The notes under the pieces: generated by a model
Seen by the model: only the letters and a program-made list of their open reading frames with translations
Told to the model about the DNA's origin: nothing
Database searches by the model: none
Assembly (NCBI GenBank): GCA_003168215.1
Contig: PMSW01000073.1
Span: 1 to 44,856, forward strand
DNA length: 44,856 bases
Source of the DNA: Actinomycetota bacterium
GTDB lineage: Bacteria > Actinomycetota > Actinomycetes > Streptosporangiales > Streptosporangiaceae
Direction of reading: 5' to 3'
Made by a program: the position numbers and the translations under genes
In this document: positions 4,064-16,702 of the stretch, one piece after another
Position numbering within the stretch: the first letter of the stretch is position 1
Layout: each line of letters opens with the position of its first letter

Positions 4064-6013
4064 GTGCCCCAGATCCGCGTCGCGCTCGCCCAGGTCAATG
4101 CCACCGTCGGAGATCTTGAGGGCAACGCAAGGCTGCTGGTCGAGTGGACCAGGCTGGCCGCCGGGCACGGTGCCCGGATCGTGGTATTCCCCGAGATGAT
4201 GCTCACCGGCTACCCGGTCGAGGATCTCGCCTTGCGCGCGTCGTTCGTGGACGCCTCGATCGCCGCGGTGGCTGGCGCGGCGCGGCGGCTGGCTGCCGAG
4301 GACCTCGGCGGCATTGCCGTGGTGACCGGCTACCTGGGCCGCCGGGCCGGCCTGCGACCGCGCGTGGGACTGCCGTTCGGGGCACCGCTCGACGCCGCCG
4401 CCCTGCTGTATGCCGGGACGGTGGCAGTGACCTCGGCCAAGCACCACCTGCCGAATTACGGGGTCTTCGACGAGTACCGCTATTTCGTGCCCGGGGACTG
4501 CCTGCCCGTCTTCCGGCTGCAGGCGGCGGCCGGCCAGCCGGTAGACGTCGCGATCGCGATCTGCGAGGACCTGTGGCAGGACGGCGGCCCGGTCGCAGTC
4601 ACCCGGCAGGCCGGCGCGGGCCTGCTCGTGGTGCCCAACGCCTCACCGTACGAGCGCGGCAAGGATGACACCCGGCTGGAGCTTTGCCAGCGCCGGGCCC
4701 GCGAGGCGGGCGCCGCGCTCGCGTACGTCAACATGGTCGGCGGCCAGGACGAGCTGGTGTTCGACGGCGATTCGATCATCGTGGACGCCGCTGGCACGCT
4801 GCTGGCCCGCGGCCCGCAGTTCGAGCAGGCGCTGATCATCACCGACCTGGAGCTGCCCGCCGCCGACCAGGCCATCGGCCCTGGCGAGACGCCGGCTGAC
4901 GCCAGCGACGGCACGGTCATGACGATCAAGCGGCTCACGCTGGCCGCGCCGGACGGCCCGGGCGCCAGTGCGCCAGCCGGCCGCGCTGCTGGCGGCCCCC
5001 GGGTGACCAGCCCGGCGGCCGGCGGCCCGGCCGTTCATGATCCCGAAGGAGCCGTTCATGATCCCGAAGGATTTGCGTCATCCATGGCGCCGGATCCTTC
5101 GGGATCATGGCCGACGGCAGGGACAAGCTGGCCCCGGCTCACCGATCTCGCCGAGGTCTACGCGGCCCTGGTCACCGGCACGGCGGACTACGTCCGGAAG
5201 AACGGCTTCCGCTCCGTGATCATCGGCCTGTCCGGCGGCATCGACTCGGCGCTGACCGCTACCATCGCCGCCGACGCGATCGGGCCGGACCGGGTGCACG
5301 TCGTGCTGATGCCCAGCCGGTACTCCTCCGGCCACTCCGTCAGCGACGCCGACGACCTGGCGAAGCGGCAGGGCCTGCATGCCAGGACGGTGCCGATCGC
5401 CGCGATGGTCGACGCCTTCGAGTCGGAGCTTGACCTGCATGGCCTGGCGGCGGAGAACCTGCAGGCCAGGATCCGCGGCATGATCCTGATGTCGCTGTCC
5501 AATGCCGACGGCCATCTCGTGCTCACCACGGGTAACAAGAGCGAGATTGCCACCGGGTACTCGACGCTCTACGGCGACGCGGCCGGCGGGTTCGCGCCGA
5601 TCAAGGACGTGCTCAAGACGCTGGTCTGGGACCTCGCGCGGTGGCGCAACCAGCAGTCGGAGGATCGCGGCGAGACTCCCCCGATCCCGCCGAACTCGAT
5701 CACCAAGCCGCCGAGCGCCGAGCTTGCGCCCGGGCAGCTCGACAGCGATTCGCTGCCGGACTACCCGGTGCTCGACTCGCTGCTGCACGACTACGTCGAA
5801 CGCGACATGGGGGCTGCCGGCCTCATCGCCGCAGGTCATGATCCCGGCCTGGTCAGCCGGGTGATCACGATGGTCGACCGGGCCGAGTACAAGCGGCGGC
5901 AGTACCCGCCGGGACCGAAGATCACGGCGAAGAACTTCGGCCGCGACCGCAGGCTGCCGATCACCAGCGGCTGGCACGAGCCCCGGCCCCCGGCCGATCA
6001 CCCCGCGTCCTGA
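4064..6013 (+). CDS. nadE: Glutamine-dependent NAD(+) synthetase
   Basis: A 649-residue two-domain enzyme that makes NAD+ from deamido-NAD+, ATP and glutamine, the last step of NAD biosynthesis. Residues 1 to about 285 form the nitrilase-fold glutaminase, with the triad visible as Glu44 (VFPEMM), Lys126 (SAKHHLP) and Cys167 (AICEDLWQ). From about 365 the synthetase domain begins, with the ATP pyrophosphatase loop IGLSGGIDSALT and later TTGNKSEIATGYSTLYGD and NSITKPPSAEL. Between them is a low-complexity Gly/Ala/Pro linker (about 295-360) containing two tandem AVHDPEG units encoded by an embedded repeat element (separate entry). The GTG start follows a -10 box at 6 nt and lacks a Shine-Dalgarno. 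The neighbouring divergent glnA2 is another glutamine-related amidotransfer gene. Confidence 0.95.
   Translation: MPQIRVALAQVNATVGDLEGNARLLVEWTRLAAGHGARIVVFPEMMLTGYPVEDLALRASFVDASIAAVAGAARRLAAEDLGGIAVVTGYLGRRAGLRPRVGLPFGAPLDAAALLYAGTVAVTSAKHHLPNYGVFDEYRYFVPGDCLPVFRLQAAAGQPVDVAIAICEDLWQDGGPVAVTRQAGAGLLVVPNASPYERGKDDTRLELCQRRAREAGAALAYVNMVGGQDELVFDGDSIIVDAAGTLLARGPQFEQALIITDLELPAADQAIGPGETPADASDGTVMTIKRLTLAAPDGPGASAPAGRAAGGPRVTSPAAGGPAVHDPEGAVHDPEGFASSMAPDPSGSWPTAGTSWPRLTDLAEVYAALVTGTADYVRKNGFRSVIIGLSGGIDSALTATIAADAIGPDRVHVVLMPSRYSSGHSVSDADDLAKRQGLHARTVPIAAMVDAFESELDLHGLAAENLQARIRGMILMSLSNADGHLVLTTGNKSEIATGYSTLYGDAAGGFAPIKDVLKTLVWDLARWRNQQSEDRGETPPIPPNSITKPPSAELAPGQLDSDSLPDYPVLDSLLHDYVERDMGAAGLIAAGHDPGLVSRVITMVDRAEYKRRQYPPGPKITAKNFGRDRRLPITSGWHEPRPPADHPAS
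5031..5109. repeat. REP-like repeat element inside nadE coding sequence
   Basis: Two direct copies of a 20-nt unit (5031-5050 and 5052-5071, period 21) are followed by an inverted copy. The 16-bp arm CATGATCCCGAAGGAT (5057-5072) pairs perfectly with ATCCTTCGGGATCATG (5094-5109) across a 21-nt loop. All copies are in frame and fall in the interdomain linker of NadE. A further copy with one mismatch lies between genes at 16687-16702, so this is probably a dispersed genomic repeat rather than a nadE-specific motif. Confidence 0.75.
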
Positions 6014-6054: not shown

Positions 6055-6110
6055 CCTCGTCAATGTGAAAATACGCGGGTTCGATGCCGCGTATCTTCAC
6101 ATTGACGAGG
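6055..6110. terminator. 24-bp inverted repeat between convergent genes
   Basis: Arms 6055-6078 and 6087-6110 are complementary at 23 of 24 positions with an 8-nt loop (GTTCGATG). It lies 41 bases after the nadE stop and before the convergent DUF2891 fragment. The arms are AT-richer than their surroundings and there is no T-run. It may work as a bidirectional terminator or be a dispersed repeat; the structure is certain, the role is inferred. Confidence 0.6.
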
Positions 6111-8603: not shown

Positions 8604-8650
8604 ACCGGGCCTGCCCGCACGCATGACGTGCGGGCAGGCCCGGTGTTTTT
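8604..8650 (+). terminator. Intrinsic terminator
   Basis: A perfect 17-bp GC-rich stem (8604-8620 with 8628-8644, 7-nt loop) is followed by GTTTTT. This is a textbook rho-independent terminator for the secreted protein gene. It separates that gene from the paralogue remnant. Confidence 0.85.
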
Positions 8651-14009: not shown

Positions 14010-14612
14010 ATGGTCGTCATGAACGCGGACCAGGTCGCCGCGCTGCGCGCGCTGCTGGGTCCCAGCGGCTGGATGGAGCAGACGCAGGAATTCTCCCGCG
14101 CGCTCCGGGTCTCCGCGCGCACCCCGGGCGGGCTGCTGCTCGTCGGCACGCCGGATGACGAGCCGTGGCACCTGACCGCGCACCTGGACGACGAGAGCCG
14201 GCTGGCCGGGATCCCCGGGCTCGCGCCCACGCTGGTGCGCTGGTCACCACCGGCGGATGCGCCCGCGCACCTGCGGGTCGGGATGGCCAGGCTGGAGGCG
14301 GCCAGGCGGGGCGAGACGCTGCTGGTAGTCAGCGCGGAGGCGGCCCCGGCGTCGCTGCTTGAGCGGGTCGACGACGCCCGCCGGACCGGCGCGACCATCC
14401 TCGCGCTTGACCAGGGCGATCCGGAGCTTGACGGCCTGGCGCACGAGTCGCTGATCGTGCCGGCCGGGTCAGCCCTCGTTTCCTTCGACGCCGCCCAGCA
14501 CCTGGTCAGCGCCGCCGCAGGCGGCCAGCACGACCGGCCGCGCGACCGCAGCCTGCGCCGGCGGCTCGCGCGTCTTCTCGACGCGCTCAGCGGAACGCCG
14601 CCCCCCGGCTAG
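14010..14612 (+). CDS. Conserved hypothetical protein, weakly SIS-like
   Basis: A 200-residue soluble protein I do not recognise by name. The middle alternates hydrophobic strands and helices (TPGGLLLVGTPDDEPWHL, GETLLVVSAEAAPASLLERV, ATILALDQGDPELDGLAHES) in a way that recalls sugar-isomerase (SIS) domains, but no catalytic residues can be assigned. The C-terminus RRRLARLLDAL is a basic amphipathic helix. The start may be the ATG at 14010 or the one at 14019; neither has a good ribosome site. It is the last plus-strand gene before a 52-bp palindrome and the convergent YbjQ genes. It is probably real because of its coding-like composition and its divergent spacing from npdG (68 nt). Confidence 0.6.
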   Translation: MVVMNADQVAALRALLGPSGWMEQTQEFSRALRVSARTPGGLLLVGTPDDEPWHLTAHLDDESRLAGIPGLAPTLVRWSPPADAPAHLRVGMARLEAARRGETLLVVSAEAAPASLLERVDDARRTGATILALDQGDPELDGLAHESLIVPAGSALVSFDAAQHLVSAAAGGQHDRPRDRSLRRRLARLLDALSGTPPPG

Positions 14613-14625
14613 CCCCGGCAAAGGC

Positions 14626-14677
14626 GGTGAATCCCCGGATCGCTCACCTTCGAAGGTGAGCGATCCGGGGATTCACC
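14626..14677. repeat. 52-bp perfect palindrome between convergent genes
   Basis: Two 26-bp arms are perfectly complementary with no spacer: GGTGAATCCCCGGATCGC begins the left arm and the centre is TTCGAA at 14649-14654. It starts 14 bases after the hypothetical gene's stop and lies before the convergent double-YbjQ gene. There is no T-run. It may act as a bidirectional terminator in RNA, a cruciform or REP-type element in DNA, or a large operator. Confidence 0.85.
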
Positions 14678-14744
14678 ACGTGAACCGAGCACGCGAAGCC
14701 GGCGCTGGCCGGGAGCCGTTCAGGGGGCCAAGGGCTGAAACCGA

Positions 14745-15590
14745 TCAGGAGTCCAGGCTCAGCACCATGGTCGGCCGCTCGATGACATGGTCGTCGCGCA
14801 GCGGCCGCACGGCCGTGCCGATCGCGAAGAACTCGGTCGTGTGCGAGCCCCAGGTGTGGCTATGCTGGCGCAGCTGCACCCCGACGATGCCTTCGGCGCG
14901 ATACTCCTCCGCCTCGGCCTGCATGCGGCTCATCGCCAGCTCGCGGGCGTCGTACAGCGCCTGGGTGAACTGCTCGAGCTCCACGTTCCTGCCGATGTTG
15001 CCGAGCTTCCCGCCGAGCTTCTGGTGCGCGATGTGGTAGACGCAGGAACCCATCACCATGCCGAGCGGCGCGTAGCCCGCCCGGATCAGCGTCCAGAAGT
15101 CCTGGCCGGACAGGTCGGAGGTGAAGGGCAGGTTCTTGTTGTTCCGCCACTCCTTCACTCCCCCGCCGCCCGCGTCCGGCTCGGCGTGCACCGCCGTGCC
15201 GACCGCGATGAATTCCGCGATGTCGTTGCCGAATTCCTTCATCTCCACGTCCAGCCTGACGCCGACGATGCCGTCCGCGCCCAGCGCCTGGGCCTCCGCT
15301 TCCATCCGGGTCATGGCCAGCTCCCTGGCGTGGTACATGGCCTGGGACAGCACGTCGAGTTCCTGGTTCTTGCCCCAGCGGCCGACCTGCAGGCCGACAT
15401 GGTAAATCGAGCTGCCGAGCACCAGCCCGAGCGGGCGGAACCCGCACTCCCGCACGAGCAGGAACTCGTTGACCGAGAGGTCCGAGGTGAAAATGGCGCC
15501 AGGCTTTCCCGGCCGCAGCTCGGCGAGGCGCTTCATCGCGTCCTGCGGCACGCCCAGCACGCCGAAATCCGTGCTCTGCTGCTCGGTCAT
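14745..15590 (-). CDS. Double YbjQ/UPF0145-domain protein (first)
   Basis: A 281-residue protein made of two YbjQ (UPF0145, heavy-metal-binding-like) domains, about residues 30-135 and 155-265. Each begins with an FTSDLS block ([25 protein letters not shown]), has GFRPLGLVLGSSIYH or GYAPLGMVMGSCVYH, an ARELAMxRMxAEA helix, a GADGIVGVRLDV-type strand and ends in EFIAVGTAV or EFFAIGTAV. Single-domain members form ring pentamers in crystal structures; the biochemical role is unsettled. GGGAGAG just before the ATG supports the start. It lies 57 nt downstream of a second double-YbjQ gene on the same strand, and the two are diverged tandem paralogues. Confidence 0.85.
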   Translation of the reverse strand: MTEQQSTDFGVLGVPQDAMKRLAELRPGKPGAIFTSDLSVNEFLLVRECGFRPLGLVLGSSIYHVGLQVGRWGKNQELDVLSQAMYHARELAMTRMEAEAQALGADGIVGVRLDVEMKEFGNDIAEFIAVGTAVHAEPDAGGGGVKEWRNNKNLPFTSDLSGQDFWTLIRAGYAPLGMVMGSCVYHIAHQKLGGKLGNIGRNVELEQFTQALYDARELAMSRMQAEAEEYRAEGIVGVQLRQHSHTWGSHTTEFFAIGTAVRPLRDDHVIERPTMVLSLDS

Positions 15591-16577: not shown

Positions 16578-16686
16578 CCGCACGCCCCTTTCGGGCCGGT
16601 TCGGCAGTTGCCCCCACGATACCGGCCGGAGGCCCCGGCCCGGAGCATGCGCGCCGCAGCGGCGCTCAGCCAGACGGGCGACGCGA

Positions 16687-16702
16687 ATCCTTCGGGATCA
16701 CG
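16687..16702. repeat. Intergenic copy of the nadE repeat arm
   Basis: ATCCTTCGGGATCACG differs by one base from the 16-bp inverted arm found inside nadE at 5094-5109. It lies between the second YbjQ gene and the small 58-residue gene, about 11.6 kb from the nadE copy. Confidence 0.6.

Follow-up and report, generated by a model that had tools for sequence, protein, structure and literature searches.

A perfect palindrome between convergent actinomycete genes as the likely copy of a lineage-specific REP-like repeat family

Among the described systems with which a short bacterial palindrome can be compared, REPINs are inverted doublets of REP sequences that form hairpins, with spacings that peak at 71 and 110 bp according to the available passages of their description (PMC3116915). 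Compensatory changes are common in the middle of these elements, between two conserved regions, in the same passages (PMC3116915). The GTAG- and CGTC-tagged REPs, whose tag stands beside a short stem, are found mostly in tandem and convergent gene settings, near stop codons and sometimes within genes; the CGTC families have no associated transposase, and untagged REP-like families are mentioned as well, among others in M. tuberculosis (PMC3733652, in its accessible portions).

Here, we analyze a perfect palindrome that lies between two convergent genes of an actinomycete; the whole stretch of DNA under analysis, 44,856 nucleotides in length, is referred to as the window. We consider it likely that the palindrome represents one copy of a REP-like repeat, approximately 66-68 bp long, that is dispersed and lineage-specific. 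With REPINs, the repeat shares its shortness, its symmetry, its extragenic location, its multiple copies and its occasional tandem clusters. It differs from them, as they are portrayed in the available passages of PMC3116915, in that no RAYT was found in the assembled part of the genome, in that its single arms fold weakly and are separated by essentially no spacer, and in that about two dozen copies stand against the hundreds known for REPINs. With the tagged REPs it has in common the prevalence of tandem and convergent settings, the vicinity of stop codons and the occasional intragenic position, and with the CGTC families the lack of an associated transposase; no GTAG or CGTC tag, as depicted in the accessible portions of PMC3733652, was evident by eye at the ends of our 22-copy consensus.

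The palindrome and its family within the genome

An inverted-repeat search of the window bore out the initial annotation, which had described a perfect 52-bp palindrome at 14,626-14,677: its arms (26 + 26 nt) are 100% complementary and join at TTCGAA with a spacer of 0 nt (Table 1). Among the inverted repeats of the window whose arms are spaced no more than 60 apart, the palindrome ranks first. The longest spacerless perfect arms reach 7-11 nt in 20 mononucleotide shuffles of the window as compared with the observed 26 nt, and the palindrome is therefore not a product of chance. Its flanking genes are indeed convergent, with a gap of 132 bp, and a terminator-like T-run is missing on both strands.

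Table 1. Coordinates of the palindrome and of its flanking genes in the window
Feature	Position	Strand	Basis or remark
Full family element, 68 model positions	14618..14685	strandless (palindromic)	both strands match model R1 (86.2 and 81.7 bits); this copy is part of the model's training set
Left arm, GGTGAATCCCCGGATCGCTCACCTTC	14626..14651	+	inverted-repeat search
Right arm, exact reverse complement of left arm	14652..14677	+	inverted-repeat search
Left convergent gene, without Pfam match (200 aa)	14010..14612	+	13 bp lie between its end and the perfect palindrome
Right convergent gene, 281 aa, YbjQ_1 domains (PF01906)	14745..15590	-	stop codon 67 bp past the perfect palindrome

Two further hairpins of the window were recorded. 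At 8604-8644, 18-bp perfect arms are followed by GTTTTT in the shape of an ordinary intrinsic terminator, and at 6055-6110, 24-bp arms that are 96% complementary enclose an 8-nt loop in DNA that by eye is AT-richer than its surroundings and has no evident T-run. Gene content such as an F420-dependent oxidoreductase, together with a GC content of 69%, points to an actinomycete.

The assembly from which the window stems comprises 4.65 Mb in 176 contigs, with a GC content of 69% and a completeness of 74.6%. Other genomic copies, whose search the initial annotation had proposed, are present in this genome: a plain DNA search found the palindrome family at 17 places, and a covariance model trained on 16 of these matched at least 24 places with E < 1e-7, plus a partial one with E of about 0.006; the number is a lower bound, as scoring extended to 150 of the 2817 candidates from the first look. 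A strict sequence pattern proved too strict and matched the window copy only. In Rfam, three sub-threshold matches of miRNA type were obtained for the palindrome, as long hairpins may give.

The copies are spread across many contigs, and their unit of about 66-68 bp extends slightly beyond the perfect part in the window. In the 16-copy alignment, the family consensus is a perfect palindrome of 66 bp, made of CCAAGGTGGTGAATCCGGGGATCGATCACCTTC and its reverse complement; its arms can be written as GGTGGTGAATCC ... GGATTCACCACC. Over 23 copies, arm pairing is high within about 31 bp of the dyad and farther out falls to a background of 0.30. The closest pair of copies is 85% identical and the median identity amounts to 72%; the family copies are thus old, and recent movement is not visible.

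Many copies are imperfect palindromes, and that at L073 is degenerate, with a best gapless palindrome score of 7. This weakens the proposal that palindromes of such length are unstable in replication and that their maintenance implies a role, all the more as the severe palindrome instability seen in Escherichia coli concerns far longer palindromes. The accessible part of a review on palindromes gives no length threshold for instability (PMC7999016).

A fold-back joining of both strands during assembly could in principle create a spacerless palindrome. Runs of N do occur inside the element in 3 of 25 copies (L070, L022 and L074) as compared with 0.11 expected, so that palindromes of this kind evidently hamper assembly. 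Against an artefact at our locus, the window is free of N, the flanks of its copy are different genes, and 23 other strong copies reside at independent places. In view of these further places and of the window without N, we regard a fold-back artefact as very unlikely.

Next to some copies, partial arms or arm-plus-flank units were observed in tandem (L019 2570-2690, L072 2580-2690, L012 2520-2560 and L009 2575-2640); in L019 and L072 their periods are roughly 33 and 55 bp, as if slippage had occurred at the hairpin. A pattern search furthermore revealed another palindrome family, TGATCCCGAAGGAT ... ATCCTTCGGGATCA, dispersed over about 16 places of the genome, including window positions 5038-5109 and 16682-16700 as well as L094 6812, L104 19052, L110 19929 and L117 6171; each of 59 other genomes searched holds 0-3 one-mismatch matches to it.

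Distribution and orthologous loci among relatives

Our comparison set consisted of 341 genomes from 68 genera of the same taxonomic family, within which the genome studied here is the sole representative of its genus. Matches to the covariance model with E <= 0.001 were present in 6 of the 341 genomes, strong or multiple in our genome only and at one weak place in each of the five others; these searches over more than 40 genomes used stricter filters, with 15 or 25 candidates scored per genome, and may miss weak single copies. The weak matches (G019, G102, G169, G190 and G234; E 2.6e-5 to 6.3e-4) were not counted as members of the family: four are hairpins of other sequence, including that of G102, which nevertheless has the family's outer boxes in common, and that of G234 is not clearly a hairpin. 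A pattern that brackets the element by its outer boxes matched 18 places in our genome, none with the reversed control, and 0-3 places in each of the other 340 genomes, being present in 9 of the 341 genomes overall.

The exact core of the palindrome occurs in six stretches of the genome_contigs collection (Marinobacter (2), Lewinella, a Chloroflexi MAG, Corynebacterium and Tropicibacter), a collection that may omit our genome or very near ones. We take these six as chance matches; a second outer arm within 80 bases was found in none of them, and their best model match has an E-value of 0.014. In the text-searched literature, which is not searchable by sequence, no paper evidently describes this palindrome family. 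As a separate observation, another genome of the taxonomic family, G073, has a near-identical 54-bp sequence, GGTGGATCC...GGATCCACC, at three places (L188 and two more) that by eye is a poor palindrome and perhaps part of another repeat.

The convergent gene pair of the window is syntenic in G002, G032 and G011, where 16, 56 and 39 nt, respectively, separate the matched ends as compared with 138 nt here. The conservation check that had been suggested for the palindrome was extended to five copies, and the element is absent from all 17 intervals beside the corresponding orthologous gene pairs: three for the window pair, four for aspS-rarA, six for tig-clpP, three for thiE and a prenyltransferase-like gene, and one for an epimerase gene and YceI, where the gene names are presumed unless a domain match provides them. 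The covariance model gave 0 matches in these 17 intervals; the interval beside aspS in G017, whose next gene is more than 1 kb away, was partly covered by reading, and the model search took in the whole loci. The sole model match in these loci, upstream of thiE in G011 (E 4.9e-5), was rejected, since it lies outside the interval and is a long palindrome with another sequence. This palindrome (L164 1186-1239) is near-perfect with arms of at least 20 bp (GGCGTCGATGTGGCAGCGCC), and its arm is absent from the other loci examined. Hairpins of unrelated sequence exist in some of the relatives' intervals, for instance one with an arm of 19 in the tig-clpP interval of G032. The contigs L126 (G035) and L134 (G014) end 31 and 2 bp, respectively, past the matched end of the YbjQ-type gene.

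One copy, at C102 (L009), lies in frame within a coding gene for a protein with CoA-binding and Succ_CoA_lig domains. Its contribution to the protein is a linker segment of about 17-23 residues, and partial duplicates of the outer box are found in the same linker. In the orthologues of G019, G035 and G024, the linker is short, with 3-5 residues opposite the element; the linkers of G017 and G011 are long and of unrelated sequence, and neither was counted as empty. Judged from these short linkers in three relatives and the long, unrelated ones in two, the linker site appears to tolerate changes in length, and three of five relatives look empty.

Three roles had been put forward for the palindrome in the initial annotation, namely bidirectional termination, DNA structure and a mobile repeat. 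The dispersed copies, their absence from the intervals of relatives and the intragenic copy favor the mobile repeat.

An effect at the level of DNA can be pictured as a site composed of two inverted, imperfectly symmetric boxes (GGTGA-ATCC-SS-GGAT-CGN-TCACC), with a protein of the nucleoid or of DNA topology as putative binder, for which the interplay of BIMEs with gyrase in E. coli provides a model. The GGTG/CACC boxes are intact at their four positions in 20, 15, 20 and 20 of 22 copies, and the dispersal of the copies across many contigs would likewise suit such a site. To our knowledge, no cognate protein is known; a single arm shows no clear gain in folding over shuffles, and lineage-specific turnover would be odd for a conserved site that structures the chromosome. 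A site of this kind is consequently an improbable explanation of the family.

Gene context, transcript ends and arm covariation

Intrinsic transcription terminators resemble the palindrome of the window as GC-rich hairpins between convergent genes. They possess a U-tract, while none is present in any of the 23 copies, and the palindromes studied here form a repeated sequence family that is also found in non-terminal contexts. A T-run, defined as at least five T in the eight bases after the stem on either strand, follows 0 of 23 copies (L022 and L074 were left out of the statistics on pairing, duplications and T-runs). The copy at L016 is adjoined by a separate hairpin and UUUUU on the strand of the YceI gene, as seen from sequence and fold; a terminator scanner with a loop limit of 8 listed nothing beside this copy.

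With respect to neighboring genes, 22 of the 25 copies could be classified (the intragenic L009 and the copies at L071 and L074, which have no right neighbor, were excluded), and 8 are in convergent, 11 in tandem and 3 in divergent settings; the underlying genes were called with a simple program based on codon usage, and the class is uncertain for L068, L019, L023 and L070, with one neighbor 0.65-2.1 kb off, and for L018 and L069, where a called start overlaps the element. A 636-kb background sample contains 43 convergent, 136 tandem and 72 divergent gaps of at least 60 bp. The convergent excess (8/22 versus 43/251) is accordingly borderline, with a Fisher p of 0.041 or, by base share, of 0.055, and the shortage of divergent copies is not significant (p of 0.21 or 0.10). 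In 16 of 22 cases, the copy is located no more than 100 bp downstream of a stop codon.

The arms of the family co-vary moderately, with a signal that is mixed in the first 16 copies and clear in 22. In the set of 22, 86.9% of the pairing cells are paired as compared with 82.7 +/- 0.9 in shuffles, both-sided changes number 32 cells as compared with 16.2 (0 of 500 shuffles reach either value), and pairs with a both-sided change number 12 as compared with 8.7 (reached by 8 of 500), where the shuffles ignore the relatedness of the copies and the count omits L022 and L070 with their N-runs and the partial L074. With the first 16 copies, 17 both-sided cells stand against 9.7 in shuffles (3 of 500 reach this value), and two of five measures give no excess (pairs, 6 versus 6.1; further pair types, 17 versus 17.3). 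The covariation term of RNAalifold is just -0.2. Individual copies range from five fully compensated pairs and one other changed pair at L067 to full agreement with the consensus over 27 pairs at L016. The compensatory changes observed in the hairpin, less marked when the first 16 copies alone were counted, are a further likeness to REPINs as outlined in the available passages of PMC3116915. Selection on the hairpin, descent of sub-families or arm-templated repair may each be the source of the compensation, and each is compatible with the data.

Dedicated bidirectional terminators, or stabilizers of mRNA 3' ends, that operate without a U-tract and were multiplied for their usefulness at gene ends would fit several of these data. 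The RNA hairpin is very stable (-64.6 kcal/mol for 101 nt around the window palindrome as compared with -34.6 +/- 3.6 when shuffled; z -8.4), 8 of 22 classified copies lie between convergent genes and 16 of 22 shortly past a stop codon, and the arms co-vary. Nevertheless, we hold such an origin to be unlikely, given the 11 tandem and 3 divergent copies and the one in frame within a gene, where a terminator would cut the gene, the missing T-runs, the separate UUUUU hairpin beside the L016 copy, the orthologous intervals of relatives that have no copy, and a convergent excess that is borderline. Bidirectional termination as the origin of the palindrome was thereby not upheld; a secondary effect on transcript ends may exist.

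Class of the element and possible mode of spread

The preferred reading of the palindrome as a copy of a REP-like repeat is in line with the generic traits of such elements: a short palindrome, dispersed copies, a mainly extragenic location, and strong matches in 1 of 341 genomes. Y1_Tnp (PF01797) had 0 matches in the assembled part of the genome, which is 74.6% complete; the control matched in 8 of 14 genomes and exceeded the cut-off in 6. MITE-like non-autonomous elements are similar in being small, dispersed, inverted-repeat units with no coding capacity, and they differ from the family in that neither a consistent target-site duplication nor a parent insertion sequence sharing its ends was found here. 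The search for duplications over 210 combinations of boundary and length in 23 copies, whose true ends are uncertain, peaked 20-24 bp away from the dyad and thus within the element; outside it, a 2-bp repeat at 36 bp scored best, with 21 of 46 bases, which is unremarkable as the best of 210. The 12-bp outer box has 80 matches with at most one mismatch in the genome as compared with 8 for the reversed control. Among eight outer-box sites that were read outside the palindromes, no autonomous parent carrying the arms was present; five lie in a well-scoring coding frame and three do not, and none matches the family model at the box. In four sequences, a single arm folds without a clear advantage over shuffles (z -0.1 to -2.1).

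As no Y1/RAYT gene was found in the assembled part, no consistent target-site duplication and no parent element among the sites read, and as a single arm does not clearly fold better than shuffles, we file the family as untagged REP-like, and neither as a REPIN nor as a tagged REP; it is probably a non-autonomous mobile repeat. The unit could have been spread by an enzyme acting in trans that recognizes either the hairpin or the conserved GGTG/CACC boxes. Selection would then purge most copies in promoters and genes and spare those at the 3' ends of genes, whose transcripts would carry a hairpin that may, as a by-product, block exonucleases or help to end transcription. At the window locus, an insertion between two already convergent genes would be the most likely course of events. 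A more specific proposal, which we put forward as a rather doubtful conjecture, is that the family spreads without a RAYT and that its arms are kept identical by arm-to-arm conversion of DNA and not by selection on RNA. If such a correction took place, perfect palindromes like that of the window would be renewed while the copies otherwise diverge.

By analogy, the untagged REP-like families appear to be the nearest slot for the palindrome family. M. tuberculosis, in which such families are present, is an actinomycete. What had seemed a unique structure would thus join a small repeat family, one that is missing from the matching neighborhoods of relatives. It adds a REP-like family from an apparent member of the actinomycetes, a group that the accessible portions of the survey on tagged REPs do not name apart from the untagged ones of M. 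tuberculosis (PMC3733652). The family offers a tractable case for studying the movement of REP-like elements for which no RAYT can be identified, and it cautions that long palindromes between convergent genes are not necessarily terminators.
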